Of a stretch of 45,225 nt of DNA, positions 4,489-27,919 are shown one piece after another (the stretch's first letter is position 1; each line of letters opens with the position of its first letter). Origin of the DNA: Bacteroidota bacterium. Its GTDB lineage: Bacteria; Bacteroidota; Bacteroidia; JAADEI01. Location: NCBI GenBank assembly GCA_026992635.1, contig JALWYU010000078.1, positions 1-45,225 on the forward strand, given 5' to 3'. Position numbers and translations under genes: made by a program. A model generated the notes under the pieces. It did no database searches. It was not told the DNA's origin and was given only the letters and a program-made list of their open reading frames with translations.

Positions 4489-6567
4489 ATGCCGCCAGCG
4501 CATCAAAACCCATCAAAAGTCCGACACCGAATCTTCCTTCGCGTACTCATTGTCGCCCTGATCCTCACAGGATTCGCCATCACCGTCCTTGCCAGCGTAA
4601 TCCACGTCGTCCTCCAAAACAAACCCCTCACCCTCGCAAAACCCCACATAGACACCCTCACACCACCCCGCGGAAACATCTACAGCGAAAACGGGATGCT
4701 CATGGTTACCTCCCTCCCCGCATGGAACGCTTACTTTGACCCATTCGCCGACGGACTCCCCCCAGAAACCCTCTGGACCCAACTCCCCAACCTCGCCAAA
4801 TGCCTCGCCAACACACTGAACACACGTTCCACCACACAATGGCTGGATTACCTCCTCCAGAAAATCCGAACCGGCAACCGCTACATCCACATCGCCTCCA
4901 GCATTGACCTCATCACCATGAAACAACTCAAAACCTGCCCCATATTCCGACGAGGGAGATACCGCGGCGGTCTCATCTTGGAAAACCATATCCGACGACA
5001 CTACGTCTTCGGCGAACTGGCACGTCGTACACTCGGATACGCCTACACCACCTACCAGTCCGGCCTAGAACGATACTTCCACCAGATCCTCGCCGGAAAC
5101 CCCGGACTACAAATCGCCTACAAACTCCCACGCGGCAACCAGCTCATCAAAAACATCCTCCAGAAACCCCAGCCCGGAAACGACCTCATCGTCACACTGG
5201 ACCCCTTCATCCAGGATATCGCACACCACCACCTCCTCCAGATGCTCATCCAAACCCGGGCAGACCACGGCTGCGTGATCGTCATGGAAGTCCCCACCGG
5301 TAAACTCCGTGCAATCGTCAACCTGAAATGCTTACCCAACGGACAGTGCAAAGAATACCACCGAAACTACGCCATCCACGAACGATACGAACCCGGATCC
5401 ACATGGAAAGCCGCCTCCATCTTAGCCGTCCTGGAAGCCACTAACCTCTCCACAACAAGCCCCATACCCACCTTCAACGGCAAATTCAAGTACTACGACC
5501 GTCTCATGGAAGACCACGAACTGCCCCAACAGGACACCGTCCCACTCCGCAAAGCCTTCGCCCACTCCATGAACGTCGCACTCTCCCACTTGGTCTGGGA
5601 AACTTTCCGCGATCAGCCCCACCAATTCATCAATTACCTCCGCCAGTTCGGACTCACCGAACCCACAGGAATTACTTTCCCCAACGAACCCACTCCCCGC
5701 ATCAAAACACCCGACGACCCCACATGGAGCGGAACAACCCTGCCCTGGATGGCAATCGGTTACGAAGTCCAGGTCACACCACTCCAGCTCCTCACCTTCT
5801 ACAACGCCATCGCCAACAACGGAACCCTGATCAAACCCCTCTTAGTCTCAGAAATCCGACAGGGCAACCACACCATAGAACGATTCACAACCCAGATCCT
5901 GCGAAAACAAATCGCTTCACCCAACGCCATCCATAAACTCCAAACCTTACTGCAAGCCGTCGTCCACGAAGGAACCGCCAAAAACATCTACTCACCTTAC
6001 CTGCCCATAGCCGGCAAAACCGGAACCGCACAAATCGCACGCAAAGGCAAATACCTCCGACAGTACGTCTCCTCATTCGTGGGCTACTTCCCTGCTGACC
6101 AGCCCCTCTTCTCATGCATCGTCGTCATCCACAACCCCAAACACGGCTTCTACGGCAGCCAGGTCGCCGCACCCGTCTTCTACGAAATCGCACGACGACT
6201 CCTTGCCAAATATACCACCATCAACCCCTCCACAATCATTCCGCCACAACCACCACACACCTGGCAACACGCCTTCCCAACCTCCTTAGCAATCCTCTTC
6301 CCGGAATTCCTCCCAACCACCACAACCACCACAAACCATACACTGCTCACCTTCCAGGATACCACACCCCACCTCACTACACCTCACCCCGATACAATCC
6401 CCGACGTGCGCAACATGGCACTGAGCGATGCACTCGCCCTCCTCAGCAGCTACGGACTCCAGATCCACATCAAAGGCTCACCCTGGGGACGCATCTCCCA
6501 CCAGTACCCACCACCCGGAAAACCCCGATTCCGATACCGAACCATCACACTCTGGCTACAGCCCTGA
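4489..6567 (+). CDS. ftsI: Septal penicillin-binding protein FtsI/PBP3 (D,D-transpeptidase) with C-terminal PASTA-like domain
   Basis: Active-site motifs STWK (EPGSTWKAASIL), SMN (AHSMNVALSHL), KTGT (IAGKTGTAQIARKG). C-term PDVRNMALSDALALLSSYGLQIHIKG resembles PASTA. Confidence 0.93.
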   Translation: MPPAHQNPSKVRHRIFLRVLIVALILTGFAITVLASVIHVVLQNKPLTLAKPHIDTLTPPRGNIYSENGMLMVTSLPAWNAYFDPFADGLPPETLWTQLPNLAKCLANTLNTRSTTQWLDYLLQKIRTGNRYIHIASSIDLITMKQLKTCPIFRRGRYRGGLILENHIRRHYVFGELARRTLGYAYTTYQSGLERYFHQILAGNPGLQIAYKLPRGNQLIKNILQKPQPGNDLIVTLDPFIQDIAHHHLLQMLIQTRADHGCVIVMEVPTGKLRAIVNLKCLPNGQCKEYHRNYAIHERYEPGSTWKAASILAVLEATNLSTTSPIPTFNGKFKYYDRLMEDHELPQQDTVPLRKAFAHSMNVALSHLVWETFRDQPHQFINYLRQFGLTEPTGITFPNEPTPRIKTPDDPTWSGTTLPWMAIGYEVQVTPLQLLTFYNAIANNGTLIKPLLVSEIRQGNHTIERFTTQILRKQIASPNAIHKLQTLLQAVVHEGTAKNIYSPYLPIAGKTGTAQIARKGKYLRQYVSSFVGYFPADQPLFSCIVVIHNPKHGFYGSQVAAPVFYEIARRLLAKYTTINPSTIIPPQPPHTWQHAFPTSLAILFPEFLPTTTTTTNHTLLTFQDTTPHLTTPHPDTIPDVRNMALSDALALLSSYGLQIHIKGSPWGRISHQYPPPGKPRFRYRTITLWLQP

Positions 6568-6586
6568 ACAAAATCCCAACCAACCC

Positions 6587-8074
6587 ATGACCTGGCAACT
6601 CAACTCCCTGCTCCACGGACTGACCAAACAACAAATCGTCGGACCCTGCATAGACACCATCACAGGATGGACAACCCACGCCCAATCAGTCCAGCCCGGC
6701 AACCTCTTCATCGCTATTCGCGGAACCCACCACGACGGACATAACTGGATTGACGAAGCCATCACACGCGGCGCACGCGTCATCCTTTGCGAAACACTTC
6801 CTCCCACCCAACACCCCCACGTCCTGTACATCCAGGTACCTTCCACACGACTCGCATGGACACACATCGTCCGACAAGCCTACCACAAACCCGATGAACA
6901 CCTGACACTCGTCGCCGTCACAGGCACCAACGGAAAAACCACCACCGTCTACCTCCTCTGGCAATCCCTCCACCACCTGGGCTATCCCTCAGGCATGTTC
7001 TCCACAATCCGCTACGGATGGCACAACCACTGGCAAGACGCCACACTCACCACACCCGACCCCAACACCTTCTTTCCACTCCTGGCAAAAATGCAACAGC
7101 ACGGCATCCAGTACGTATTCCTAGAAGCCAGCTCACACAGCCTCGCCCAACACCGACTCACCTCCGTACGAATCCAGGGCGCTATCTTCCAGAACCTCTC
7201 CCACGACCACCTGGACTACCACGGATCCATAGAAGCCTACCGCGCCGCCAAATTCAAACTGGCACAACTCACCCACCCCTCCGGATTCCTCCTCGCCAAC
7301 TTAGACGACCCCCACGGACAACACTTCCTCCAGGCAGGAAAACACGTCCAGCACCGCGCAGGTTTCGCTATCCATAACCCAGCACAATTCCGTACACGAA
7401 TCATCAGCGCCGAACCCGGCAGCCTCACACTCGCCCTCAACAACCACTGGATCACTCTCCCGCTCACCGGACACTTCCAAGCCTACAACGTACTCGCCAC
7501 CTGGGCAGCCCTCCACTACCTCCTGCCCACCGAAGACCCCATACGTAAACTGGAAGCACTCTCCCAATGCCAGCCCCCACCCGGCAGACTCGAACCCGTC
7601 ATCCACAAACCCTTCTACGCCTTCATAGACTACGCCCACACACCCCACGCACTCCAAACCGTACTCACCACACTCCGCCAGTTCAAACACAACAAACTCA
7701 TCGTGGTCATCGGATGCGGCGGCAATCGCGACACCCAAAAACGACCCAAAATGGGCGCAATCGCAACACAACTGGCAGACCTCGCTATCTTCACCAGCGA
7801 CAACCCAAGAAACGAAGACCCCCTCCACATCATCCAGGAAATGGTCAAAGGCGCTCAGCCCCTCAACAACTACCTCATTGAACCCAACCGAAAACAAGCC
7901 ATATTCCTGGCAGTCAAACTGGCGCAACCCAACGACATCCTCCTGATCGCCGGTAAAGGCCACGAAACCTACCAGGAAATCCAGGGCAAAAAAATCCCCT
8001 TCTCCGACAAAGAAGTACTCCTCAACGCCTACCACACCCTCCTGAAAAAATCCTTCACCTTCACAACCCGCTAA
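6587..8074 (+). CDS. murE: UDP-MurNAc-tripeptide synthetase MurE (probably meso-DAP adding)
   Basis: Start MTWQLNSLLHGLTKQQI at 6587 (internal to ORF 6428..8074). VAVTGTNGKTTTVYLLWQSL; DNPRNEDP motif (DNPR is associated with meso-DAP specificity); IAGKGHETYQEI. Confidence 0.93.
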   Translation: MTWQLNSLLHGLTKQQIVGPCIDTITGWTTHAQSVQPGNLFIAIRGTHHDGHNWIDEAITRGARVILCETLPPTQHPHVLYIQVPSTRLAWTHIVRQAYHKPDEHLTLVAVTGTNGKTTTVYLLWQSLHHLGYPSGMFSTIRYGWHNHWQDATLTTPDPNTFFPLLAKMQQHGIQYVFLEASSHSLAQHRLTSVRIQGAIFQNLSHDHLDYHGSIEAYRAAKFKLAQLTHPSGFLLANLDDPHGQHFLQAGKHVQHRAGFAIHNPAQFRTRIISAEPGSLTLALNNHWITLPLTGHFQAYNVLATWAALHYLLPTEDPIRKLEALSQCQPPPGRLEPVIHKPFYAFIDYAHTPHALQTVLTTLRQFKHNKLIVVIGCGGNRDTQKRPKMGAIATQLADLAIFTSDNPRNEDPLHIIQEMVKGAQPLNNYLIEPNRKQAIFLAVKLAQPNDILLIAGKGHETYQEIQGKKIPFSDKEVLLNAYHTLLKKSFTFTTR

Positions 8075-9324: not shown

Positions 9325-10686
9325 ATGACCACAACTTCCCCAACCATGGACGTGCTCATCTGGGGACTGGGACGCAGCGGATGGGGCGCACTCCTCCTGG
9401 CACTCAAAAAAGGTTATCGCGTCGCCGTCTCCGAACAACAACCACTCAACACCCAAACCCGACAATTCCTGCAGCAACACGACATCCCCTACGAAGAAGG
9501 CAAACACACTCCACAATGGTTCGCACAAGCCCCACTCATCGTCAAAAGCCCGGGCATACCCCCACACCACCCACTCTTCCACGAAATTCCCTCCCTATCC
9601 CAACGCGTCATCTCCGACATTGAATGGGGATACCTCCACACCCAAAATACCATCATCGCCATCACCGGAACCAACGGAAAAAGCACCACCACCAAACTCA
9701 TCGCTCACCTCCTCCAAACCGCCAACCTGCCTGCAGCCTTCTCCGGAAACATCGGCAAAAGCTTCTGCCTCCAAATCATAGAATGGGACGCACCCTACCA
9801 CGTCGTAGAAGTGAGCAGCTTCCAGCTGGCACACACCCAAAAATTCCATCCCAAAATCGCCATCATCCTCAACATCGCTCCCGACCACCTGGACTGGCAC
9901 AAAACCATGAACCACTACATCACCGCCAAATGGAAAATCACACAAAACCAAACCCCAAACGACTGGCTGCTCACAGGCTCCGACACCCTCACACAAACCT
10001 ACCTCCAGAACCAAACTACACGAGCACAACACCTCCCCATCCATTACACCTTCAACCCCAAAACCTTAGAGGTTTCCATCCCACTGCCCAATCACACTAC
10101 ACTCACCCTGACACGCAACGACTGGATCCGCGCACTCACGCCCCAGAACGTCGCCGCCGCCACACTCACCGCCTACCTCATGAACATTCCCCCCAAAACC
10201 ATCCAGCACAACCTGTCCACCTTCCAGGGACTGCCCCACAGAATGGAAACCATCGCTGAATACCAGCAAGTCCTGTTCATCAATGACTCCAAAGCCACCA
10301 ACGTCCACGCAACACACTGGGCACTCACCCTCGCCAACCCGCCCATCATCTGGATCATGGGCGGCTACCTAAAAGGCAAACCCGACTGGACACCACTCAT
10401 TGACCTCGCCAAACAAAAAGTCAAAGCCATCATATGCATCGCCAAAGACTGGGAACCCTTCTACCGCGCATTCCACCACCTGAATATCCCCTTCCATACC
10501 GCTGACACCTTCACAGAAGCCATCCACCAAGCCTGGCAATACGCCGAGCCCGGCGCAACCATCCTCTTCTCACCCGCCGCCGCCAGCTACGACCGTTTCC
10601 AAAACTACCAGGAACGCGGAGAACACTTCTGCCAAACCGTCTGGAACTTCGTAGAACACCAGATCTACCAGAAATCCACCGCATAA
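9325..10686 (+). CDS. murD: UDP-MurNAc-L-alanine:D-glutamate ligase MurD
   Basis: IWGLGRSGWGALLLALKKGY, VKSPGIPP, AITGTNGKSTTTKLI, LNIAPDHLDWHKTMNHYITAK, FINDSKATNVHATHWAL. Confidence 0.95.
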   Translation: MTTTSPTMDVLIWGLGRSGWGALLLALKKGYRVAVSEQQPLNTQTRQFLQQHDIPYEEGKHTPQWFAQAPLIVKSPGIPPHHPLFHEIPSLSQRVISDIEWGYLHTQNTIIAITGTNGKSTTTKLIAHLLQTANLPAAFSGNIGKSFCLQIIEWDAPYHVVEVSSFQLAHTQKFHPKIAIILNIAPDHLDWHKTMNHYITAKWKITQNQTPNDWLLTGSDTLTQTYLQNQTTRAQHLPIHYTFNPKTLEVSIPLPNHTTLTLTRNDWIRALTPQNVAAATLTAYLMNIPPKTIQHNLSTFQGLPHRMETIAEYQQVLFINDSKATNVHATHWALTLANPPIIWIMGGYLKGKPDWTPLIDLAKQKVKAIICIAKDWEPFYRAFHHLNIPFHTADTFTEAIHQAWQYAEPGATILFSPAAASYDRFQNYQERGEHFCQTVWNFVEHQIYQKSTA

Positions 10687-12044
10687 TGCATCAACACTGG
10701 CTACGGGGCGACCGACAACTCTGGACCGCTTTCTTCATCCTCCTGGGCATCTCACTCCTGGGCGTATACAGCGCAACGGGAAACCTCGCACTGATCCAGG
10801 GCGGTTCACCCCACAAATACTTCCTCCGCCACTTCGCCTTAGTCGCATCCGGTGCACTCCTCGCCATCGCCATCGCTCGCATCCCTTACACCGCCTTCCG
10901 GAGAATCGCTACACCACTCCTCATTCTCGCCATCTTCCTCCTGACACTCACACTGGTCAAAGGCGTCAAAATCAACGAGGCACGACGATGGCTACTCATC
11001 CCCTTCCTCAACATCACCTTCCAGACCTCCGCATTCGCCCAGTTCGCACTCATCCTCTACTTAGCAAGCACCTTATCCACTATGTACGACCAGTTCATCA
11101 ACCCCAACACACAACCCTTCTGGAAACTCTTCAAACGCATACTCCTCAAAATCGCTCTGCCCACCGGGATCGTCATCGTCCTCATTGCACCCGCTAACCT
11201 CTCCACCGCACTCCTTACCACCGCCATCGCACTCACCCTCATGTTCGTGGGACTGATCCCAATCCGACACCTCCTCCTATCCGGACTCACACTCCTCATC
11301 TTCGGCACACTTATTATTGGCATCGCCCACATCGCAGGCATGGAAACACGGCTCACCACCTGGCAACAACGCATACTCATGTACTTTGCACCCGAAGACC
11401 AGACCCCCTACCAGGTCCAGCAAGCCCAGTACGCACTCCAGCACGGCGGATGGTTCGGACAGGGACCCGGTAAAAGCCTCTTCCGATACTACCTGCCACA
11501 CGTCTACTCCGACTACATCTTCGCACTCATCGTGGAAGAATACGGCGTCGTCGGCGGACTCCTCACACTCGCACTCTACCTGTGGATTCTCTTCCGCGCA
11601 ATCCAGCACTTCCTCCGAATTGAAGGACGTTTCGGCGCACTACTCCTCTTAGGCATCGGAATCGCCCTACCCACCCAGGCACTGACCCACGCCGGCGTCG
11701 TCGCAGGACTCCTCCCACCCACAGGTATACCCCTGCCACTCATCAGCATGGGCGGAACCTCCATCTGGTTCACCTGTATGCTCTACGGACTCCTCTGCAA
11801 CATCAGTGCCTACGCCCTACAACCCAAACCCACAACACAACAACAACAACAACAACCCACAACCAAACCCAAACCAGAACAACATCACGAACAACAACAC
11901 ACACAATCACAACACGACCACGAATGGCACACCAGCTTCCCGCCTGCATCAGAAACCCTTACACCCACAACCCCCCACCCAAACACCAGCACCTCCACTT
12001 CTTCCCAAACCCAAGAACCCGAAATCCTCACACTCTACCCATGA
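10686..12044 (+). CDS. ftsW: Septal peptidoglycan glycosyltransferase FtsW with long low-complexity C-terminal tail
   Basis: SEDS family: GGWFGQGPGKSLFRYYLPHVYSDYIFALIVEEYGVVGG, GIPLPLISMGGTSIW. The tail after ALQPKP is Q/T/H/N-rich (~75 aa). Start overlaps murD stop (TAATG). Confidence 0.93.
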   Translation: MHQHWLRGDRQLWTAFFILLGISLLGVYSATGNLALIQGGSPHKYFLRHFALVASGALLAIAIARIPYTAFRRIATPLLILAIFLLTLTLVKGVKINEARRWLLIPFLNITFQTSAFAQFALILYLASTLSTMYDQFINPNTQPFWKLFKRILLKIALPTGIVIVLIAPANLSTALLTTAIALTLMFVGLIPIRHLLLSGLTLLIFGTLIIGIAHIAGMETRLTTWQQRILMYFAPEDQTPYQVQQAQYALQHGGWFGQGPGKSLFRYYLPHVYSDYIFALIVEEYGVVGGLLTLALYLWILFRAIQHFLRIEGRFGALLLLGIGIALPTQALTHAGVVAGLLPPTGIPLPLISMGGTSIWFTCMLYGLLCNISAYALQPKPTTQQQQQQPTTKPKPEQHHEQQHTQSQHDHEWHTSFPPASETLTPTTPHPNTSTSTSSQTQEPEILTLYP

Positions 12045-13156
12045 ATGCACAAACCTCTCCCCACCGGAAACACCTCCTCATGATCGGCGGCGGAACCGCC
12101 GGACACGTCTTCCCACTGATCGCACTCCACCCCTTCCTCCAAAAACACCAGTGGCACTACGCCATCATCACCGACCCGCGCGGACAACCCCAGCTCCAAA
12201 ACCACTTCCCACCACATCACATCCGAACCATCCGAATCCACGGATGGTACCGGAAAAAATGGTGGAAAAACCTGGATCTCACCTACCTGATACCCTGGGC
12301 ATTCTGGCGTGCCACCTTCTGGCTGGAACGATGGAAACCCACCATAATCTTCGCAACCGGTGGATACGTCCAGGTACCCGTACTCTGGGCAGCACGCCAC
12401 CTCCGAACCATACCCCTCATCCTTTACGAGCCCAACGCCATCCCCGGACTCGCTACACGACTCTTCCTCAGACAGGCAACACGCATCTGCACCTTCCTCC
12501 CCTCAGACCAGCTGCCCAAAGACAAAACCATCCAAACCGGCGTACCACTCCGACCCACTTTCCTCAAAGAAATCCAGTATACACCCCAGCAAGCCCGACA
12601 ACAGCTCAACCTCCCACAGAACCAACCCATCCTCACTATACTGGGCGGATCACTCGGCGCACAATTCTTCAACGAATTCCTCGCACAAACCCTCAAACAC
12701 TGGATCCAGCAAGGCGTCTTCATCATCTGGCAAACCGGGAAACAACCCATCCCCCAGCACGCACGCCACTACCACAACCACCCCCAAATCCGTATGGCTC
12801 CCTTCTTTGACCACATCGGTTTAATCCTCCGAGCCTCCACACTCGCTGTAGTCCGCGCAGGCGCCACCACCCTCGCCGAAATCCTCGCCAGCGGAACACC
12901 CGCTATCGCCGTCCCCTCGCCACACGTGGCTGACAACCACCAGGAAGCCAACGCACGCACCTTAGCAGAACAGGGCGCTATCCACCTCGTCCGCCAGCAA
13001 GAAGGATTTCAATCACTGCGCAAAACCATTGAACACCTCCTCCAAAACCCCCACAAACGCCAGCAACTCGCTAACAAAGCAAAACAACTGGCAATCACCG
13101 ACAGCGCACACCGCCTGTTCCAAACCCTACAGCAATACGCAAATCTCCACACATGA
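12041..13156 (+). CDS. murG: UDP-GlcNAc:lipid I GlcNAc transferase MurG
   Basis: Start MNAQTSPHRKHLLMIGGGTAGHVFPLIALHPFL at 12041 (ATGA overlap with ftsW). ILTILGGSLGAQFFNEFL, VVRAGATTLAEILASGTPAIAVPSPHVADNHQEANA. Confidence 0.95.
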   Translation: MNAQTSPHRKHLLMIGGGTAGHVFPLIALHPFLQKHQWHYAIITDPRGQPQLQNHFPPHHIRTIRIHGWYRKKWWKNLDLTYLIPWAFWRATFWLERWKPTIIFATGGYVQVPVLWAARHLRTIPLILYEPNAIPGLATRLFLRQATRICTFLPSDQLPKDKTIQTGVPLRPTFLKEIQYTPQQARQQLNLPQNQPILTILGGSLGAQFFNEFLAQTLKHWIQQGVFIIWQTGKQPIPQHARHYHNHPQIRMAPFFDHIGLILRASTLAVVRAGATTLAEILASGTPAIAVPSPHVADNHQEANARTLAEQGAIHLVRQQEGFQSLRKTIEHLLQNPHKRQQLANKAKQLAITDSAHRLFQTLQQYANLHT

Positions 13157-15576
13157 CCACCACCCGAAAAATCTTCCTGGCAGGTATTGGCGGCACCGGC
13201 ATGAGTACACTCGCCTGGTTCCTCAAACATCTGGGATACTCCGTAGAAGGCTACGACCGCGCACCCTACACCCTCCAAGACCTGCAAAACGCTTTCCGCG
13301 TAACCCACCACCTGGAAGAAGCTCTCCAATGGCTCAACCACCACACCCACCTCGTCTACACACCCGCACTACCCGATGACCACCCCCTCCTCCAAAAAGC
13401 ACGAAACCTCCACCTCCACATAGAACGACGCGCACAATTCCTGGGCAACCTCCTCCACAACTACCCCCACATCGCCATCGCCGGAACACACGGAAAATCC
13501 TCCACCACACTCCTCACCACAACCATCCTCCGATACTTCCACATCCATGCCACCGCACTCGTCGGGGCACCCATCCAGAACCATACACAAAGCGGATTCC
13601 TGCCAGGCAACCTCCACAACGCTCCCATCATCATAGAAGCCGACGAATACGACCACGCCTTCCTCACACTCACACCCGAAATCAGCGCCATCGTCTCCTT
13701 AGAACACGAACACGTTGACCACTACCCAACCGAAGCAAGCCTCCTGGAAGCCTTCCGACACTTCATCCTGCGCACCCAAAAAGCAGTCCTGATTGACGGA
13801 ACACTCGCACAACGCTACCCATCCTGGATCCAGTCCCTGCCCAGAGAAAAAATCTGGTTCCTCCACTGGCAAACCCACAACCACCCACCACACCACCTCC
13901 CCCCCGACAGAACCTTCCTCCTGAGTAACTACCAGATCCACCGACAGCCCCTTCGCCCACCCACCATCTCCGTACACTGGCACCCCCCACAACAACCCAA
14001 ATCTGTCCAGTGCCTCCTGCCCATACCCGGAAAACACTTCGCATGGAACACCGGAGTCGCTCTCAGCCTAACCTACCTCTACCTGCAAATCCACAACTAC
14101 CATCCCCACAACATCCTGCCTAGCCAATTGGATCTCAGAACCCTCTACCCCGGACTCCACCGACGTATGGAAATCTACTACATGGACCCATTCCGCGCAC
14201 TGATCGACGACTACGCCCACCACCCCACAGAAATCCACGCCACCATAGAAAGCCTCCGAACCCTCTTCCCCGATGACCCCATCTGCATAGTCTTCCAGCC
14301 GCACCTCTACTCACGAACCAGAGCCTTCGCCACACAGTTCGGACAAGCCCTGTCCAGCGCCGAATACGTCTTCGTCACCGACATTGAACCCGCACGCGAA
14401 CCCCACGACCCCAACACCACACCCCACACCATCCTCCAGCACGTCCAGAGCTGGAAACAATACGTCCCCTGGAAAGCCATCCCCGAAACCATACCCCGAA
14501 TCCGACCACGCATCGTCATACTCATGGGCGCCGGACCCCTGAACCTGATCGCCCAACCCCTTCTGTCCAACCTCAAAAAAATCTGGTTCCCAAAAGGGAA
14601 AAAACTGCTCACATCCCACACCTTCGCCCAAACCCTATCCCACTTCGGACGCGTCCTCCCCCACTACCCCTTACGCAAAATCGCTACACTGCGTACAGGC
14701 GGATACGCCCGTTACCTCATCCAGCCCACAAACCGCGAAGCCTTCCTTGCCCTCCTCCAGTTCCTGGATGAAAAAGACATACCCTGGTGGGTCATCGGAC
14801 GCGGATCCAACCTCCTGATCGGAGACTGCCTCTGGAACGCCGTCATCATTGACCCCACCCAGGCACTCAACTACATCCTCTGGGAAAAAAACAACAACCA
14901 CAACGAAGACCAGCCACCTCAAACCTCACTCGTCCAAACCGGCGCAGGCACCAGCTGGCCACAATTCGTCATGGAAACCATCCGACAGGGCTACACAGGC
15001 CTGGAAGAACTCGCCGGAATACCCGGAAGCGTAGGCGGCGCACTCATCATGAACGCCGGCGCCTACGGAAAAGAAGTTTTTGACCTCCTGGTGGACGTCC
15101 TCGTCTACGACCGGAACGAACGAAAAGCCATCCGACTCAAACCCAACGCAATCCCTCACGGCTACCGATTCGCACGATTCCCCGCACAAATCATCATTGA
15201 AGCACGCTTCCAGCTCCACCGCACCGACCCAGAGCAAGCCCGACAAAAACGAAACCAGCTCCTCCAACAACGCAAAGCCACACAACCCGTCCATATGCCC
15301 AACGCCGGATGCTTCTTCAAAAACCTGCCCCACCTCCCCACAGGCAAACTCCTGGACGAACTGGGCTTCAAAGGCTTTACCATAGGCGGCGCCTACGTCA
15401 GCCCCCAGCACGCCAACTTCTTCGTCCACAACGGCTACGCATCCAGCTGGGCATTCCTCCATCTGGTAGAAACCATCCGAACAAAAGTCTACAACCAGCT
15501 GGGCTTACTCCTCCAGATGGAAGTCCAAAAAGCAGGAAATTTCGGCGGCGATGAAACCTGGGAAGTGGCTCCCTAA
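13153..15576 (+). CDS. murC-murB: Fused MurC-MurB (UDP-MurNAc:L-Ala ligase + UDP-N-acetylenolpyruvoylglucosamine reductase)
   Basis: One uninterrupted 807-aa ORF. N-half: KIFLAGIGGTGMSTLAWFLKHLGYSVEGYDR, IAIAGTHGKSSTTLLT, DDYAHHPTEIHATIESL. C-half from ~14600: LRTGGYARYLIQPTN, WWVIGRGSNLLIGD, GLEELAGIPGSVGGALIMNAGAYG, GYRFARF, NAGCFFKNL. ATGA overlap with murG. Confidence 0.93.
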   Translation: MTTTRKIFLAGIGGTGMSTLAWFLKHLGYSVEGYDRAPYTLQDLQNAFRVTHHLEEALQWLNHHTHLVYTPALPDDHPLLQKARNLHLHIERRAQFLGNLLHNYPHIAIAGTHGKSSTTLLTTTILRYFHIHATALVGAPIQNHTQSGFLPGNLHNAPIIIEADEYDHAFLTLTPEISAIVSLEHEHVDHYPTEASLLEAFRHFILRTQKAVLIDGTLAQRYPSWIQSLPREKIWFLHWQTHNHPPHHLPPDRTFLLSNYQIHRQPLRPPTISVHWHPPQQPKSVQCLLPIPGKHFAWNTGVALSLTYLYLQIHNYHPHNILPSQLDLRTLYPGLHRRMEIYYMDPFRALIDDYAHHPTEIHATIESLRTLFPDDPICIVFQPHLYSRTRAFATQFGQALSSAEYVFVTDIEPAREPHDPNTTPHTILQHVQSWKQYVPWKAIPETIPRIRPRIVILMGAGPLNLIAQPLLSNLKKIWFPKGKKLLTSHTFAQTLSHFGRVLPHYPLRKIATLRTGGYARYLIQPTNREAFLALLQFLDEKDIPWWVIGRGSNLLIGDCLWNAVIIDPTQALNYILWEKNNNHNEDQPPQTSLVQTGAGTSWPQFVMETIRQGYTGLEELAGIPGSVGGALIMNAGAYGKEVFDLLVDVLVYDRNERKAIRLKPNAIPHGYRFARFPAQIIIEARFQLHRTDPEQARQKRNQLLQQRKATQPVHMPNAGCFFKNLPHLPTGKLLDELGFKGFTIGGAYVSPQHANFFVHNGYASSWAFLHLVETIRTKVYNQLGLLLQMEVQKAGNFGGDETWEVAP

Positions 15577-16342
15577 CCGAACCCCCACACTACGACGCAT
15601 CCCTTCGCCCACCACACTCTTCACCATCCTGCTCATCATATGCCTCACTATACTCAGCATCAGTGCACTGGGCAATGCCTTCCGCTGGGAACAGTGTACA
15701 ATCCAGGGCTTCTCCATCCACGGACCACTCATCCATACCGACTCGCTCCGCCTGGCCCGACAACTCAACCGACTCCTCGCAAAACAATTCTACCAGATCC
15801 ACAACCTGCCCCTCCAGGAACTCACCACACTCTTCCAGCAATTCCCCGCAATCCAGACCTGGACAATCACCATCAACGAACAGGCACGCATCCACTTCTT
15901 CATCCAGGAACGAAAACCCATCCTCCGCATCATCCTGAACGGAAAAGTCCTCTGCATGGACGAAGAAGGCACCCTCTTCCCCGACCGGCGAAAAGGCATC
16001 CAGTGGCTGCCCACCTGCTGGATCACAACAACAACCACCACTACAACAACCGACTCCGCACTCGCCCCTGTCCGAACCGTACTCCATGCATTCCGTCAGC
16101 TCCACGACCAGCCATGGACACGCTGGATCAGCCACTTCGCCTACGTAGACAGCCAGTGGTGGGCAATCCTCCGCATCGCAAATACGCGCATCCATCTGGG
16201 GACCACCAGCCAGCTCCCCACCTCCCTGAAAAACCTCTCACCCTGGCTCCACTTCCTCGCCCAGAACAACCTCTGGTTACGCTACCGGGAAGCCTCCCTT
16301 GCTTTCCCCGGAAGAATCATCGCCAAAAAACACGAACCATGA
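15551..16342 (+). CDS. ftsQ: FtsQ/DivIB-like cell division protein
   Basis: N-terminal TM anchor (LFTILLIICLTILSISALG), POTRA-like segment (TIQGFSIHGPLIHTDSLRLARQLN ... FQQFPAIQTWTITINEQARIHFFIQERKPILRI); position between murCB and ftsA. Confidence 0.8.
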   Translation: MKPGKWLPNRTPTLRRIPSPTTLFTILLIICLTILSISALGNAFRWEQCTIQGFSIHGPLIHTDSLRLARQLNRLLAKQFYQIHNLPLQELTTLFQQFPAIQTWTITINEQARIHFFIQERKPILRIILNGKVLCMDEEGTLFPDRRKGIQWLPTCWITTTTTTTTTDSALAPVRTVLHAFRQLHDQPWTRWISHFAYVDSQWWAILRIANTRIHLGTTSQLPTSLKNLSPWLHFLAQNNLWLRYREASLAFPGRIIAKKHEP

Positions 16343-17886
16343 CTACGACGCCCGAAGAACTCACAGCCGACGTGGAAACCGCAACAACACATACAACAAC
16401 CAGAAAAGAAGAAAGCCAGCATCCGCTGGACACCAAACGAGAAGCCCGAACACCCCATCCCGACAAAACCAGACTCTCTCCCGTAACCAACGTCTTCGCC
16501 TTAGACCTGGGCTCCTCCTCTATCCGCGCACTCGTCGCAGGCATCTACCGAAAACCAGGACGTACGCAGTTTACGCCCACCAGCTGGAAACTCCTGCCCT
16601 TAGCTATGAGCATCCTCCCCAGTGAAGGCATCCAGGACGGCGAAATCGTCAACGTCCGACAGGTCCGCGAAACCCTGGAACGAACAATCCAGGAACTGCA
16701 TAACCAGCTGCAACCCTTAGGAAAACGATTGCCACGCTACCTGTTCGTCGGCGTGCCCGCCACCTGCGTACAAATGCAGGAAATCTCCGTGCAGGTCCCC
16801 GTAGACCGACGCGTCTCCGAAAAAGAACTGGAAGCGCTCCGCTTCCGAATCCAGAAAGAATACCTCAGTGGAGGAAGACACGGCATCACACAAATCCTCC
16901 CCTTAGAATTCCAGGTCAAACGCGGCGAAAACAAACAACCACTCACTTACCACTCCCCAGAAGAAACCATCGGCGCCGTCGGCAATACACTCCTGGGTTA
17001 CTACCTCCTCATTGATATCCACCCCGAGTTCAAAGAACTGATGGAAGAAGTCTTTCAGGCACTGGGCAACCGCTGGGAAGTCATCTACGTCCTCCAGCCC
17101 TTAGCACTCTACGCCGTTAGCCTCCCCTGGCTACAGCAATTTCCACGCGTTGCCGTCGTGGATATCGGCGCCGCCCTCACCAACCTCTTCCTCGCCGAAC
17201 ACGGCAGACTAAAGAAAATCTACGTACTGCGCGAAGGCGCACACCACGCCACACAAGCCATCGTGGAATCCTTCAAACAACTCCATTGCATGCTCCCCTT
17301 CTCCATCGTGGAAAAAGCCAAAGTCCAGCTCAGCATACAACTGGCAGAACACCACTGGCAACGACACGAAAACAACCACCAGGAAATCCGAATCCAAACC
17401 GAACACCAGGACTATGAATACATCGTCCCCGCCACACCCATGATCCAGATCGTAGACCAGTGGTACGCCAGCCTCGCTGATAAACTCTCCCAGTTTATGG
17501 AACAAGCCCCACCCTACATCATGCTGGTCACCGGCGGCGGAAGTAAATGGCCCACCATCCAGAGTATCTTCTCCGAGCAAACCGGCATCAACCACATCGT
17601 CCTCTTTGCCGGAGAACACTGGCTGCACAACGAAACCCCCGAACACACCTTCCAGGCTTTCACCGACGACGCACACCACCCCCTCAACCGAACACTCACC
17701 ACACTCCTGGGACTCGCACTCCACGGCGCCGCCTACTTAGCACGCACACGAACCACAAACTCCGAAAAACAAAAACACACGCCAGCCAAACAACAATGGA
17801 TACCCTCCCCAACCAAACTCCTCCATCTCTTCCGAAAACTCTTTCAACCCACCTCAGACACACCCTTAGAACCCAGAGAATCATGA
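16339..17886 (+). CDS. ftsA: Divergent cell division protein FtsA
   Basis: Start MTTTPEELTADVETATTHTTTRKEE at 16339 (ATGA overlap with ftsQ). VFALDLGSSSIRALVAG (phosphate-1), EGIQDGEIVNVRQVRETLERTIQEL (FtsA 1C region), VVDIGAALTNLFLAEHG (phosphate-2 position), LVTGGGSKWPTIQSIF (adenosine motif). C-terminal candidate amphipathic helix PTKLLHLFRKLFQP. Confidence 0.87.
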   Translation: MTTTPEELTADVETATTHTTTRKEESQHPLDTKREARTPHPDKTRLSPVTNVFALDLGSSSIRALVAGIYRKPGRTQFTPTSWKLLPLAMSILPSEGIQDGEIVNVRQVRETLERTIQELHNQLQPLGKRLPRYLFVGVPATCVQMQEISVQVPVDRRVSEKELEALRFRIQKEYLSGGRHGITQILPLEFQVKRGENKQPLTYHSPEETIGAVGNTLLGYYLLIDIHPEFKELMEEVFQALGNRWEVIYVLQPLALYAVSLPWLQQFPRVAVVDIGAALTNLFLAEHGRLKKIYVLREGAHHATQAIVESFKQLHCMLPFSIVEKAKVQLSIQLAEHHWQRHENNHQEIRIQTEHQDYEYIVPATPMIQIVDQWYASLADKLSQFMEQAPPYIMLVTGGGSKWPTIQSIFSEQTGINHIVLFAGEHWLHNETPEHTFQAFTDDAHHPLNRTLTTLLGLALHGAAYLARTRTTNSEKQKHTPAKQQWIPSPTKLLHLFRKLFQPTSDTPLEPRES

Positions 17887-19313
17887 GGAAGAAACAGGTT
17901 CAGATCCCCGACCACCACCCAACCATAGAAATCAACGAAAATTCACACACCATGCCCACAACACTCCACAACGAAAAAGAAAAGGAAGCGCTGGTCCCAA
18001 CCATTGAACCCCGACCACCCGACACCCACCATACCTCACCCCAGTTCCTGGTCATCGGCATCGGCGGCGTGGGCATCCACCTCCTGAAAGAATTTCCCAA
18101 TCCCACACCACCCGCCACCTCCTTCCTCATCGTAGACCGCGACCCCCAGGCACTCCGCTACGCCACCCGCGGTAAACAACTGGCAATTTCCTGCTCTCCC
18201 TCCGACAATCCCGAACACCTCCTCAAACAAATCCGACAGTATACCGCAGAGATGATCTTGCCCACCCAGCCCAAAATGATCTTCCTCGTAGGGGGAATGG
18301 GCGGATACACCGCCACTACGCTCCTCCCACTGTTCGCACAGGCAATCCACGAAGCCCTACCCCACTCTATCCGAATCGCACTCCTCGCTCTCCCCTTCCC
18401 CTGGGAAACCGGTAACCTCCTCACACGAACCCACCACGCCATTGAAGCACTCTTTGACCACGTCCACATGGTCATACCCCTGGACCCCATGGAATACTGG
18501 TACTCCACACCCGATCCCGTAGAAAAACAGGTCCACCGCCTCTACCAGAAAGGCCACGACATCATCGCTTCTCTGATCGCTTCACTCCGCCCAGACTTCC
18601 TGCGCAGCTTTTCCGAAGCCGACTTCTTTGACCTCTTCCCCCACAAACCCGATACCAACCACCAAACCCAACTCACACCACCTGCCCACTACCTGTTCCA
18701 CCCCGTCGTCATCCCTTTCACCTTATCTTCTTCGCTATCCCCAACAATGCAAGCCACACCCATCAACCTCCGCGACTACATAGTCTGGACAACCCAGCAC
18801 TCTACACCCAACAACCACCATAACCAGTCCACCACCAACCCCAACCAAACCCCATCCCACAACACCTCTCCCTACATCCTGGGCATCCTGCTGTGGCATC
18901 CCGGCAGTGCTCCCCCCCAAGACATCATCTACCACCTCATTCGCCAAATCCAGCAATACACCCATACGGACTTGCGCTTCGCAATGGGTACCAGCGAGCA
19001 AATCGTTCACGACAACTTCCGATTGGTGCTCTTCTTCCCCTATCCCTGGTCTTCCAACGGACTGATCGCCTACCGCGAAACCATGTTCCACCACCGAACC
19101 CATCCACAAGAACAACCTCAACACCAGCAACAAACCCACAAAGACCAGGAAACCAGCCAGCCACGAGTCAAAGAACAGGAGACCATCCTCGCCCTGCCCC
19201 GCGTACAGCGCACCTCTACGCACACCCGAACCAAAAAACCCCCCAAAACCCAAACGCAAGATCCTCAAAACCAGCAAACCACCACCGATCACCTCTTCTC
19301 CCTGCGCAAATAA
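17883..19313 (+). CDS. ftsZ: Highly divergent FtsZ with degenerate GTP-binding and T7-loop motifs
   Basis: Start MRKKQVQIPDHHPT at 17883 (ATGA overlap with ftsA; alternative Met at 17952). FLVIGIGGVGIHLLKEF, FLIVDRDPQALRYA, MIFLVGGMGGYTATTLLPLFAQAI, LLALPFPWETGNLLTRTHHAIEALFDHVHMVIPLDPMEYW, C-domain RFAMGTSEQIVHDNFRLVLFFPY. Canonical dcw position after ftsA. Confidence 0.8.
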   Translation: MRKKQVQIPDHHPTIEINENSHTMPTTLHNEKEKEALVPTIEPRPPDTHHTSPQFLVIGIGGVGIHLLKEFPNPTPPATSFLIVDRDPQALRYATRGKQLAISCSPSDNPEHLLKQIRQYTAEMILPTQPKMIFLVGGMGGYTATTLLPLFAQAIHEALPHSIRIALLALPFPWETGNLLTRTHHAIEALFDHVHMVIPLDPMEYWYSTPDPVEKQVHRLYQKGHDIIASLIASLRPDFLRSFSEADFFDLFPHKPDTNHQTQLTPPAHYLFHPVVIPFTLSSSLSPTMQATPINLRDYIVWTTQHSTPNNHHNQSTTNPNQTPSHNTSPYILGILLWHPGSAPPQDIIYHLIRQIQQYTHTDLRFAMGTSEQIVHDNFRLVLFFPYPWSSNGLIAYRETMFHHRTHPQEQPQHQQQTHKDQETSQPRVKEQETILALPRVQRTSTHTRTKKPPKTQTQDPQNQQTTTDHLFSLRK

Positions 19314-20458
19314 AGCAAACACTCACGCGGAACCAACCGCCAAAACGCCTTCAAATCTTCCTCCCAGGCAAGCCAGTACGTCTCCAACGGCGCACCCACC
19401 TCCACCAGCATACGTAACCTCTCTGTGCCCGCCAATCGGTCAAAATAGGAATAAAAAGGCTTTTCTCCCTGCCAAACCCACCAGACAAACAACCAGTACC
19501 ACGGCAACCGATCCCAACGACCCACCACAGAATCCGGAATCCCATCCAGCCCATACCCACAACAACGACCCCGCCGATACCGACCCCAACTCCGCTCCAC
19601 ATGCCAGCACTCCTTACCCACTCCCTCACCCGGCATACACACACACGTAAACGGCTGATCCGTCTCCCGACAGGGATTAATCGCCGTCCCCTCTAAAAAC
19701 ACCAGAATCGGATACAAACGAATTGCCAAACACGTGCGCAACGCCGGCGAAGGATTATCGCGCGGACAACCCTCACGACCCCAATCCTCACACTCACCCA
19801 TACACGGTATCACCTTCAATTCTGGCGGCGTATCTATCCAGGCACGCACCATCACACACGCCAGCTCACCAATCGTCAGCCCATACACAAACGGAATCGG
19901 CACCACCGCCACAAACGACTGGAACGACGAATCCACCAGCGGACCATCCACTAAACCCACATTCGGATTCGGACGATCCAGAACAATGACCGGAACACCA
20001 CGACGACCCGCCGCACGCAACGCATAATACATCGTGGAAATGTACGTGTAGGCGCGCACACCCACATCCTGCAAATCAATCACCAGAAGTTCTATATCTG
20101 CCAGTAACGAATCTGGAAACGTCCGATTCCGACCATACAAAGACACAACCGAAATCCCCCGGTAAACCGTATCGGGAACCACTTCACCCGCACGATAACG
20201 ACTCAAAAAGCCATGCTCCGGAACAAATATCCGACGTACACGCACACCCAACGCCAGCAACGTATCCACCAAGTGAACATCCCCTATGCGACTTGCACCA
20301 TGTACCACCACACCCACCGAAGATACCCCTCTCAAATCAGAAAGGTAAGAGCCCAACGCATACGAACCAGGCACACAACCTCCATACCCATACACCAAGC
20401 CCCTCACCAACCAGTACACACCCACCAACCATCCACACAGCTTCACCAACCACCACAT
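19289..20458 (-). CDS. DUF1343 family protein (NamZ/YbbC-like exo-N-acetylmuramidase family), membrane-anchored or exported
   Basis: RIFVPEHGFLSRYRAGEVVPDTVYRGISVVSLYGRNRTFPDSLLADIELLVIDLQDVGVRAYTYISTMYYALRAAGRRGVPVIVLDRPNPNVGLVDGPLVD, VYGLTIGELA; N-terminal hydrophobic segment. Confidence 0.85.
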   Translation of the reverse strand: MWWLVKLCGWLVGVYWLVRGLVYGYGGCVPGSYALGSYLSDLRGVSSVGVVVHGASRIGDVHLVDTLLALGVRVRRIFVPEHGFLSRYRAGEVVPDTVYRGISVVSLYGRNRTFPDSLLADIELLVIDLQDVGVRAYTYISTMYYALRAAGRRGVPVIVLDRPNPNVGLVDGPLVDSSFQSFVAVVPIPFVYGLTIGELACVMVRAWIDTPPELKVIPCMGECEDWGREGCPRDNPSPALRTCLAIRLYPILVFLEGTAINPCRETDQPFTCVCMPGEGVGKECWHVERSWGRYRRGRCCGYGLDGIPDSVVGRWDRLPWYWLFVWWVWQGEKPFYSYFDRLAGTERLRMLVEVGAPLETYWLAWEEDLKAFWRLVPRECLLYLRREKR

Positions 20459-22206: not shown

Positions 22207-24024
22207 TCAATCCTCCTCCCGAACCAGAAAGAAATACCCCTGACGCCGATACGCCCGACCCTCCGACGTCCGCACGTAAACTTCATACAGATATATGCCC
22301 TGAGGCGCCGGCTTACCATTCACCATACCATCCCAACCCTCCTCGTACGAGGTCGTCTCAAACACCGGCGCACCCCACCGATTCACAATCTGAAACCGAT
22401 AATCCACAATCCGACCCCGATATCGCAACCACGGACGAAACACACCTTCCACACCCGGCGCAAACGCATTTGCCACATGCACAATCACATCCTGAACCAC
22501 ACACCGCGTCGGACTACACGAAACCAAACCCGCATGCCCATACGGATTCTGCGCCTCCTCCTCACAAACCCGATAACAAAACTGACCATCCGAAACATCT
22601 ATCGCCCGAACGTCGTCTGTATAACGCAAATCCGAACACGTAAGCGTCGCCAGCACCTGTAACGGACCATCCGAAACACTCCGCCAAACCACACGACGAC
22701 CACATACTCCCGACCACCAATCATACGCCGTCCACTCCAGCAAATGAAGACCTGCCTCCGAAGAACGAACCTCTAAATAAGGATATGCACCCCGCTCCGC
22801 AGTCTCATGCACCTCATCACACGAATCCACCGCATCCACCCAGTAAACATATCGCGCTTCTACAGGATCAATCTGACTGTCCCGAACAAAGTAAAGCGGC
22901 GAATGCTGCGGATCATAAAGAATATGCGCAATGACCTGTGGCGAACTATTTTCCCCCCACCGCTGACGCCACACACGAAAATACTGAACGCCCGCAGGCG
23001 TGTCTATCCACCACTCCACCCGAACCACATTATCCCAATCCACCGTCACACGACGCAGGTAAAACCTGCCCGACAAGCCCGAAACATGACTCCGCAAACA
23101 AATCGGATTGGAATACACCGTATCACCCGACACCAAGCGACCTCCAACACGAAAACAATACCTGCCCGCCTGACCCGGTACCCACCGCCACACACTATCC
23201 CCACCCGAAAACCACTGCAACACCTGCCAAGCCCCAACCCCCTCCTCCCTGTACTCCAGAAAATACGACTGAACCCCAACACCCCTATACCGCGTCCACC
23301 GAAACCGAAACTGACCCGGACAAGACTGCCAGCCACCCCTCAAAAAAATCGTCGTATGCGTACGCACTTGTAACGGACCCGTATTCCCACAACTGTCCAT
23401 CACAGCAATAGAATACGTTTCCGGATGCAGGGTTGCCTCCTGCGGACGCAACGGATGCCCACTCGTGTGCCACCAAACCGTATCTGGAACCCGTACCGTA
23501 TCCAGCGGCAAAAAATTCCCCACACCCGCATCATACACATACACCACATAGGCAAACGCATCCTTCTCCTCAGAAGCACGCCAGCGAACCTCCACACTGT
23601 CCGAATTCCGCACCGACGCCACTACCAGATCTGGAGGCGCCGGCTGACGATTATCCAGAGTATCCGACGAAAGCACTCCACCACTACCACACGCCGGATC
23701 ATCCGTCAAATAATAATACCACGTCTGGTTGTTCCCATTCGCACCCGTGTGCGTAAACGTATTCTGCGGAAATGCCACCACACCGATCTGTGTATACGGC
23801 CCACCCAAACTCGTACTGGCATAAATGTGGACAGGGCCGCAATTCACAGGACGCCACTCCCAAACCAGCTGCACATCCCCATTGTTCAACGTATAAACAC
23901 AACGCAAATACGGCGCCGGAACCTGAGCACCTAACAAACCAAGTCCCAAAACCCACACAGCACCCACAAGCCCAAACACGCGATGCCCACACCTGCTTCC
24001 TGCCACACACCTCAGACACGCCAT
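22207..24024 (-). CDS. Secreted/surface protein with fibronectin-III-like repeats and gliding-motility-associated (type B) T9SS C-terminal domain
   Basis: Likely start MACLRCVAGSRCGHRVFGLVGAVWVLGLGLLGAQ at 24024. C-term NAFAPGVEGVFRPWLRYRGRIVDYRFQIVNRWGAPVFETTSYEEGWDGMVNGKPAPQGIYLYEVYVRT matches the CHU_C/type-B CTD pattern. Confidence 0.85.
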   Translation of the reverse strand: MACLRCVAGSRCGHRVFGLVGAVWVLGLGLLGAQVPAPYLRCVYTLNNGDVQLVWEWRPVNCGPVHIYASTSLGGPYTQIGVVAFPQNTFTHTGANGNNQTWYYYLTDDPACGSGGVLSSDTLDNRQPAPPDLVVASVRNSDSVEVRWRASEEKDAFAYVVYVYDAGVGNFLPLDTVRVPDTVWWHTSGHPLRPQEATLHPETYSIAVMDSCGNTGPLQVRTHTTIFLRGGWQSCPGQFRFRWTRYRGVGVQSYFLEYREEGVGAWQVLQWFSGGDSVWRWVPGQAGRYCFRVGGRLVSGDTVYSNPICLRSHVSGLSGRFYLRRVTVDWDNVVRVEWWIDTPAGVQYFRVWRQRWGENSSPQVIAHILYDPQHSPLYFVRDSQIDPVEARYVYWVDAVDSCDEVHETAERGAYPYLEVRSSEAGLHLLEWTAYDWWSGVCGRRVVWRSVSDGPLQVLATLTCSDLRYTDDVRAIDVSDGQFCYRVCEEEAQNPYGHAGLVSCSPTRCVVQDVIVHVANAFAPGVEGVFRPWLRYRGRIVDYRFQIVNRWGAPVFETTSYEEGWDGMVNGKPAPQGIYLYEVYVRTSEGRAYRRQGYFFLVREED

Positions 24025-24117
24025 CTCCCCTATCTTAATACAACCTTCGCTTTCTTCCCCCTGCCTATTACTCCCAACGAATCCCACCACAAAAAAGTAT
24101 ACACATTTTTCGGCAGG

Positions 24118-26040: not shown

Positions 26041-27795
26041 TCACCACGAAACCATCAACGGAACACGATACACCCGGGAAGTCCCCAACCGCCAGAGAAC
26101 AGCAATATAAAACGACGAACCAGAAACCACAACACCCTCAGGCAACCGAACCCGTACCCCATCACCTGCCAAACCCTCCACACTCCAAACATGCACAACC
26201 CGACCCACTAAATCCGTGAGCTGAACCATCCACCTGCCCGACGACGGTAACCGCAAACAAATCCACGAATCTCCACAACTCCACACACGAATCCCAGACG
26301 CAGACACAACACCCGGCACAACCAGCCCGGTCGACGGCGACGACACCCCACGAATCAACACCGGAATAAACACACTATCACGATTCTGGTCAATCACCTG
26401 AAAAACATGAATCCCATTGGGCACCTCACAAAAAACCGAATCGCCCGACCACACATTCGCCGCAGGATTGTAATAAATATAAGGAGGTGCCCCTCCACGA
26501 ACATGCAACGTGACGCGCGCACCCCACGCACAGCCCGCAGACGAAACCGTCGCCCACGCACGCAACCGATCCGCCGTACGAAATCCTACCCACTGCGCAT
26601 TGTTCACCTGACAGAAATCACGCGCATTGACCGGAAACACCATAACCCGTAACTGTTGATTCAGTGGCAACCCCCGCAAATACGCAAATGTATCTGGCGC
26701 TTCCACCAGCGCCTCCTTTACCACCTGACTCCCCTGAAATACACTCACCACATAAAAATCCGCATTCGCAACCGGCGACCAGTGCACAAGCACCTGATCC
26801 GCACTCACCGCCACCGTACGCGGAACACGAAATACCGCCGTAGACGACAATTCCGGCGTATTATCCGTAATGGACTGAATCCACTGACGCGAACCCCACG
26901 TCTGAATCACTGCACGCATATGCTGCATCTGTTCATTAGAAAAGCGCTGCACACAATAATCATCCGCATACGACATGATCAGCGTATGATCCGGATCCAG
27001 CGTATCCCACGGCAACGGACAAAACGACGGCTCCGTCTCGTCACCCTGATAAGGACACGACCACCGATAATTCAAATAATCCGCTCGCGTATCGCAAAAC
27101 CGATCACCACACGTACTGCAATTACTCCCATCTACACACTCCGTGCAGTCAATTTGCGCAAAGGTGTGGGGTAAGCCCAGCCAGTGCCCAATCTCATGGG
27201 AAAGCGTCGCAGAAGGAACCGGCAAATCCCCATTACAGTTGTTGGCAACCGTCACTTCATCCGCCCCACAACACCCAAAACACCCACAAACACCTGGAAC
27301 ACCACAATACGCATTGCTCCCCATAAAAAACACATGCATGTAATTCGCATGCGTCGCCGCATTCTGAACCAGATTTAGACTCGCAGAAGTATTCCCATTG
27401 TACGCGCTGGTATTTTGATACCAGAAAATCGCTTGCGGCGAAACCAAAAACCGAATGCGCGCAGGCGCAAACCGCGCCGTCGCATCACACAACGCCCGAA
27501 AAATCTCATACAATGGCTCGCAACCCGTCCCATCACTCCGACACAAAATATGCAAAGCAATGGGAATGAAAAACGTATCCGAAGACTGACTCCGATCAAC
27601 AACCAATCCCGCCGTACGACCACGGAGTAATTCCACCTGCCAGCCCTGCAACTCCGAACCACACGGATACCGCCACACCGACTGACCCAAAACCCGATCC
27701 ATCACACCCACCACCAACAACAACAAAGCAAACCCCAGCAAACCCCCAACCCAAACACGCACAACACCAACCCCCTTAGTCCGACACCAAACCAT
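26041..27795 (-). CDS. Secreted M43-family (cytophagalysin/pappalysin-like) zinc metalloprotease with T9SS type-A-like C-terminal domain
   Basis: Start MVWCRTKGVGVVRVWVGGLLGFALLLLVV at 27795. HEIGHWLGLPHTF (HExxHxxGxxH), downstream SYADDYCVQRFSNEQMQHM. C-term WMVQLTDLVGRVVHVWSVEG resembles type-A CTD. Confidence 0.88.
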   Translation of the reverse strand: MVWCRTKGVGVVRVWVGGLLGFALLLLVVGVMDRVLGQSVWRYPCGSELQGWQVELLRGRTAGLVVDRSQSSDTFFIPIALHILCRSDGTGCEPLYEIFRALCDATARFAPARIRFLVSPQAIFWYQNTSAYNGNTSASLNLVQNAATHANYMHVFFMGSNAYCGVPGVCGCFGCCGADEVTVANNCNGDLPVPSATLSHEIGHWLGLPHTFAQIDCTECVDGSNCSTCGDRFCDTRADYLNYRWSCPYQGDETEPSFCPLPWDTLDPDHTLIMSYADDYCVQRFSNEQMQHMRAVIQTWGSRQWIQSITDNTPELSSTAVFRVPRTVAVSADQVLVHWSPVANADFYVVSVFQGSQVVKEALVEAPDTFAYLRGLPLNQQLRVMVFPVNARDFCQVNNAQWVGFRTADRLRAWATVSSAGCAWGARVTLHVRGGAPPYIYYNPAANVWSGDSVFCEVPNGIHVFQVIDQNRDSVFIPVLIRGVSSPSTGLVVPGVVSASGIRVWSCGDSWICLRLPSSGRWMVQLTDLVGRVVHVWSVEGLAGDGVRVRLPEGVVVSGSSFYIAVLWRLGTSRVYRVPLMVSW

Positions 27796-27839
27796 TACTC
27801 TCCCCTTTTGCCAGAAATTTTCCTTTTGAACACATGCCC

Positions 27840-27853
27840 TACCTTTCAAGGTA
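27840..27853. promoter_or_regulatory. Palindrome TACCTT-TC-AAGGTA in a divergent intergenic region (candidate operator)
   Basis: Perfect 6-bp arms, 2-bp spacer, between the divergent M43 protease and lipoprotein/Crp-Fnr genes. Confidence 0.3.
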
Positions 27854-27919
27854 AGGAACTCCTGACAAAATCCAGAAGTTTTTCTCAGTGCAGGGCACAA
27901 ACAGACAAGAACTCCAGCC

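Follow-up and report, generated by a model that had tools for sequence, protein, structure and literature searches.

We propose, with a probability that we put at roughly 55%, that the gene closing the dcw cluster of a Bacteroidota draft genome is the single-copy orthologous FtsZ of a small Bacteroidota-group order, which by stepwise decay has become a folded, FtsA-anchored pseudo-GTPase that acts as a scaffold for septal synthesis. It has lost most of the residues required for binding and hydrolysing GTP, and its closest relatives, although they retain the gene, are missing the hydrolytic residues as well; together this suggests a small lineage whose division motor is "dead" or nearly so. The gene lies in a 45,225-nucleotide stretch of DNA, the whole of which we call the window and to which all positions refer (Table 1). 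The order comprises five genomes: the present one (G000), which is the single genome of its genus in the collections; three of a sister genus (G001-G003), which together with it constitute family f1; and one of a sister family (G004).

The open reading frame map and family scans show the gene to be the last of the dcw cluster, behind ftsA, with its ATG sharing bases with the ftsA stop codon (ATGA overlap). On the same strand, the cluster runs from rsmH/mraW (MraW methylase) through genes for an FtsI-type penicillin-binding protein, murE, mraY, murD, ftsW, murG, a murC-murB fusion and ftsQ to ftsA. MurC and MurB are likewise joined in one fused protein in G001 and G003. The PASTA domain of the FtsI-type protein is C-terminal, the C-terminal tail of FtsW is of low complexity and rich in Thr, Pro, His and Gln, and the MurE frame (6428-8074) has a long N-terminal stretch overlapping ftsI; the true starts of MurE and FtsW may lie downstream of those given by the ORF caller. 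Convergent with ftsZ and overlapping its final codons is a NamZ exo-beta-N-acetylmuramidase (19289-20458, minus strand), and two more minus-strand genes encode a protein carrying the CHU_C domain of type IX secretion (22207-24090) and an M43-like metallopeptidase (26041-28224). The type IX secretion domain and the FtsZ tail NNSFLHDNVD of the class would suggest the Bacteroidota group.

The translated frame of ftsZ is uninterrupted over its 476 codons. Because its strand is rich in C and A and poor in stops, with about 3 expected by chance (P(0)=0.04), an open frame is weak evidence by itself, and the case rests on homology and codon-position composition. In the globular regions, the first two codon positions depart widely from the neutral composition of the strand, whereas in the tail the first position stays close to it; with the frame open and the globular codon positions non-neutral, the loss of coding constraint that would mark a pseudogene was not seen. 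The initial annotation, made from the sequence alone, had placed an FtsZ at the canonical ftsA-ftsZ site, with an intact frame coupled to ftsA, and had argued that it is no simple pseudogene; the ORF map, family scans with PF00091 and codon-position composition bear out each of these points.

Homology to the tubulin/FtsZ GTPase domain was recovered both with PF00091 and by a sequence search of the PDB. PF00091 scores 30-31 bits against the protein (E 4.6e-7 to 7e-7) and 34.5 bits when the ORF is taken with its neighbours in frame (cut-off 33), and all PDB matches at E<=1 are FtsZ. An HMM made from 40 canonical FtsZ sequences belonging to the class scores 29 bits, far above the maximum of 3 reached in 2000 shuffles, so the match is not due to chance. 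Of the profile check that the initial annotation had proposed, the Pfam part thus succeeded, but the NCBIfam FtsZ equivalog TIGR00065 gave 25.1 bits, below its threshold of 295. The AF2 model has a pTM of 0.64, with pLDDT mostly 80-93 in the core and 72-79 in the C-domain. In a fold search it retrieves FtsZ at E 1e-16, with TM 0.62-0.69 for most top matches, and the model of the G001 FtsZ reaches TM 0.87 against FtsZ structures; the input alignments of both models held canonical FtsZ rows, and the C-domain confidence is only moderate for the FtsZ studied here. A different family, looked for by profile, PDB search and predicted fold, did not emerge, as all three point to FtsZ, which supports the assignment as a dcw-encoded FtsZ orthologue rather than a member of another family. 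No relatives of the protein (P0001) were found in the genome-contig and viral-contig collections.

Table 1. Features of the window discussed in the text (positions in the window; alignments are to canonical FtsZ).
Feature	Position	Strand	Basis or remark
ftsI-type penicillin-binding protein with PASTA	4489..6567	+	SxxK and KTGT present
ftsW	10686..12044	+	Control; 46% identity to G001
murC-murB fusion	13153..15576	+	Control; P-loop GTHGKS intact
ftsQ, diverged	15551..16342	+	23% identity to G001 FtsQ
ftsA, strongly diverged, 515 aa	16339..17886	+	TIGR01174, 41 bits
Eroded ftsZ, 476 aa, single copy	17883..19313	+	PF00091, TIGR00065, PDB sequence matches, AF2 fold
T1 remnant GIGGVGIH	18057..18080	+	Alignments; GxGGxG kept, Asn to His
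T2 remnant DRDPQAL (for NTDxQAL)	18135..18155	+	Alignments; Asp and Gln kept, Asn lost
T3 remnant SCSPSDNP	18189..18212	+	Alignments; GAG lost, loop about 6 residues shorter
T4 tubulin signature GMGGYTATT	18294..18320	+	GMGG and Thr kept, three Gly lost
T5 PFPWE	18393..18407	+	Alignments; Glu kept, Arg four residues on is Leu
T6 IPLD	18474..18485	+	Alignments; Asn lost
Probable T7 SFSEAD	18606..18623	+	hhalign, alignment uncertain; canonical NVDFED, sister genus SIKPGE
C-domain core	18888..19007	+	LWHP[SG] common to sister genus
Disordered tail	19089..19310	+	pLDDT below 50; base composition near neutral

The nucleotide-contacting and catalytic residues of FtsZ are assigned from established FtsZ structures. 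Against these, alignment confirms that motifs are broken, as the initial annotation had claimed; the broken loops are T2, T3 (unmentioned there), T4, T6 and T7. Its readings of T2 (DRDPQAL) and T6 (IPLD) hold. For T1, which it had counted as broken (GGVGIH), the loss of Asn is real but GxGGxG is retained. T4 is indeed GMGGYTATT, with its start corrected from 18297 to 18294; the GGGTGTG tubulin signature is absent, its place being taken by GGYTATT (18300-18320). T7, described as not recognisable, has lost its Asn and first Asp in the profile alignment and no longer conforms to NxDxxD, but SFSEAD can weakly be recognised on NVDFED and its last Asp may remain, this alignment being uncertain. The tail ends in DHLFSLRK, which bears no convincing likeness to the C-terminal FtsA-binding peptide, either as NNSFLHDNVD, the tail of FtsZ in the class, or as the TIPYxxxKPD-like ends of the sister-genus FtsZ. 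Alignments and model support an FtsZ whose nucleotide and catalytic loops are eroded, with the reading frame and, by prediction, the fold retained.

In its own genome, a metagenome-type draft of 114 contigs (2.13 Mb, 82.6% complete), this FtsZ is the only protein matched by PF00091, so a role as regulatory partner beside a second FtsZ finds no support. G001, G003 and G004 (94-100% complete) encode one FtsZ each, and in G002 there are two fragments, both at contig ends and apparently parts of a single split gene. The order presents a graded series: PF00091 scores 126 bits in G004, 109 in G003, 108 in G001 and 31 here (mostly about 148-178 in the listed intact members of the class), and the class-specific HMM scores 254 in G004, 141 in G001, 128 in G003 and 29 here, with 413 for a clostridial and 360 for a gammaproteobacterial FtsZ from other phyla. 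The G004 FtsZ is near-canonical, keeping T1, T4 and NVDIND; those of G001-G003 keep GVGxGTGSG and DND, with the GTP pocket largely retained and T7 reading SIKPGE (SxKxxE for NxDxxD). Across 388 genomes of the class, ours has the lowest score of any full-length FtsZ; two further very low scorers (G362 and G218) proved on examination to be fragments at contig ends, and the outliers that are intact, G292 and G285, retain a canonical T4 as well as the two aspartates of T7. By parsimony, the loss of two T7 residues out of three probably dates to the ancestor of family f1, and the decay of the pocket came later, in the present genus.

The FtsZ core is 90% identical in amino acids between G001 and G002 and 76% between G001 and G003, with synonymous sites saturated (pS of 0.78 for the G001-G002 core). 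Judged by these comparisons, the T7-altered FtsZ of the sister genus is under strong purifying selection, and an FtsZ lacking key catalytic residues is therefore still needed there. For the present gene, indirect evidence of constraint comes from its codon-position composition and from the predicted FtsZ fold. The initial annotation had suggested testing orthologues in this way by dN/dS; the strong constraint on the sister-genus core emerged, but the saturation precludes a dN/dS figure. Along the cluster, pS between G001 and G002 climbs from 0.42 in murCB through 0.58 in ftsQ and 0.71 in ftsA to 0.80 in the whole ftsZ gene (L062, L065, L066), perhaps through recombination or locally faster evolution.

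The genome further displays an extreme compositional bias. GC skew in the window goes down to -0.46 and AT skew up to +0.36, whatever the direction of the genes, and |GC skew| reaches 0.47 in 20 further contig stretches of the same genome (L072-L091); sampled stretches of G001, G003 and G004 have a skew of about 0.06-0.12 overall. The bias is probably linked to the replication strand; loss of uracil-DNA glycosylase was rejected as its cause, as the genome has two matches to the UDG family. Fourfold sites of the dcw genes have a GC skew of about -0.77. Glycine is lower than in G001 in all seven dcw genes compared, with the largest drop in ftsZ (0.074 to 0.031), and makes up 6.8% of the FtsZ core versus 12.9-17% in canonical FtsZ. 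This glycine-depleting bias probably drove the decay of FtsZ along. MreB and the Mur ligases were not eroded by the bias alone, and we infer that it supplied mutations which relaxed or changed selection on FtsZ allowed to fix.

FtsA scores about 190 bits in G001-G003, 124 in G004 and 275-404 in 25 other genomes of the class, all well above its score here (Table 1). In its translation the phosphate-1 motif and TGGGS persist, and the C-terminal part has an amphipathic stretch, TKLLHLFRKLF, a putative membrane anchor. ZapA-like matches score 22-40 bits in family f1 versus 40-75 otherwise, and none was found in G004. Between G001 and G003, FtsZ, FtsA and FtsQ are 57-64% identical and MurD, MurG, MurCB and FtsW 82-85%. 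MreB scores 388 bits here versus 387-390 in G001-G003, although its gene also sits on the C-rich strand, where the bias is locally milder; on the ftsZ strand, MurC, MurD and MurE have intact P-loops and FtsI has intact motifs. At the sequence level, FtsA and ZapA diverge alongside FtsZ, whereas MreB does not. General rapid evolution is insufficient as the sole cause, given that the conservation of MreB equals that seen in the sister genus and that the P-loops of the Mur ligases have survived. This co-divergence, the loss of T3, the loss of T7 already in the sister genus and the extreme, replication-strand-like bias go beyond the initial annotation.

We posit that the decay took place in two steps. 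In the ancestor of family f1, T7, which completes the active site of the neighbouring subunit, would have lost its Asn and first Asp, so that GTP hydrolysis was slowed or abolished and GTP binding probably kept. In the lineage of the present genome, the nucleotide pocket (T2, T3, T4 and T6) would then have decayed, pushed by the strong strand-specific bias that depletes glycine codons. The resulting FtsZ, predicted to be folded, probably devoid of GTPase activity and tethered by a co-diverged FtsA, would form a slow or static scaffold that shows FtsQ and FtsW-FtsI where the septum lies, and constriction would be driven by their wall synthesis. A bolder version, in which the single FtsZ of the whole family does not hydrolyse GTP and that of one genus does not bind it, making a nucleotide-independent, non-treadmilling Z scaffold partly shaped by the bias, is one that we hold tentatively and somewhat against the odds. 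Several points weigh against a pseudo-GTPase scaffold: the FtsA-binding C-terminal peptide is not recognisable, ring assembly and the start of constriction need GTP-driven treadmilling in model bacteria (PMC8079713), purifying selection on the gene itself is not directly measurable with one genome in the genus, and the structural model drew on an alignment holding canonical FtsZ, with no more than moderate confidence for the C-domain.

This FtsZ shares with canonical FtsZ (PF00091, TIGR00065) the dcw position, predicted fold, GxGGxG, GMGG, PFxxE and C-domain layout, but differs in lacking T3, the second half of T4, the T6 Asn and the T7 Asn and Asp. Chloroplast ARC3 is an FtsZ-fold protein missing motifs. 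Both it and archaeal FtsZ/CetZ paralogues are extra copies beside a canonical FtsZ, whereas none such was found beside this one. The archaeal paralogues without motifs have been noted (PMC2875224). The nearest natural case, the FtsZ of Candidatus Thiosymbion oneisti, is a weak GTPase whose polymerisation is undetectable in vitro, properties only predicted for the present protein; however, its GTP-binding and catalytic residues are conserved, unlike those lost here (PMC8953583). Loops hit here also carry the lesions of the GTPase-deficient B. subtilis D213A, whose rings condense only partly and in which constriction is still possible, treadmilling being required in this species for ring condensation and the start of constriction (PMC8079713); of E. 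coli FtsZ84 (G105S in T4), with lowered GTP affinity and turnover (PMC4603965); and of S. aureus T7 mutants (PDB 3wgl/3wgm). These engineered mutants are single laboratory lesions, whereas this FtsZ is natural, single-copy and multiply eroded. If our reading is right, the lineage resembles the FtsZ-less Planctomycetes and Chlamydiae (PMC5147048) in dividing without a working FtsZ GTPase, but differs in that ftsZ and ftsA remain in place. A limited literature search found no FtsZ termed a pseudo-GTPase.

The main rival to the scaffold reading is that FtsZ is a relic: division would now be FtsZ-independent, through wall synthesis by FtsW-FtsI and MreB, with ftsZ and ftsA decaying and too little time elapsed for their loss. 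The joint divergence of the pocket, catalytic loop, C-terminal peptide, FtsA, FtsQ and ZapA would fit such a state, and bacteria without FtsZ exist (PMC5147048); yet the frame, operon overlap and globular composition have been retained despite very large amino-acid divergence, and the sister-genus core is under purifying selection, and we regard a relic as unlikely. Less probable again is that the active site has been rewired and that GTPase activity persists. The retained residues (GxGGxG, GMGG, the T2 Asp and Gln, the T5 Glu and the acidic residue ending T7) would have to suffice, and a natural low-GTPase FtsZ does still make rings in E. coli (PMC8953583), but the protein has lost three T4 glycines, the T3 loop, the T6 Asn, the T5 Arg and, in T7, two residues out of three, and the single T4 change G105S already impairs GTP affinity and turnover of E. 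coli FtsZ (PMC4603965).

With 82.6% of the genome at hand, a canonical second FtsZ might lie in the unsequenced 17%, the present copy being a divergent paralogue or regulator; we consider this very improbable given the standard dcw position of the present copy and the single FtsZ of the relatives, including the apparently split gene of G002. An assembly or sequencing error, to which a metagenome-type draft of so many contigs is open, is scarcely credible: the 476-codon frame is intact with a consistent codon-position bias, the changes are scattered amino-acid replacements without frameshifts, the Mur ligases on the same contig are intact and the skew of the contig is that of the rest of the bin.

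If the FtsZ described here is indeed a pseudo-GTPase scaffold, the graded series from the near-canonical protein of G004 through those of G001-G003 to the nearly dead one of G000, with the sister-genus copies under purifying selection, would constitute a natural test of the roles of FtsZ beyond GTP hydrolysis. It would also mean that a strand-specific mutation bias can help erode an otherwise near-universal glycine-rich active site.
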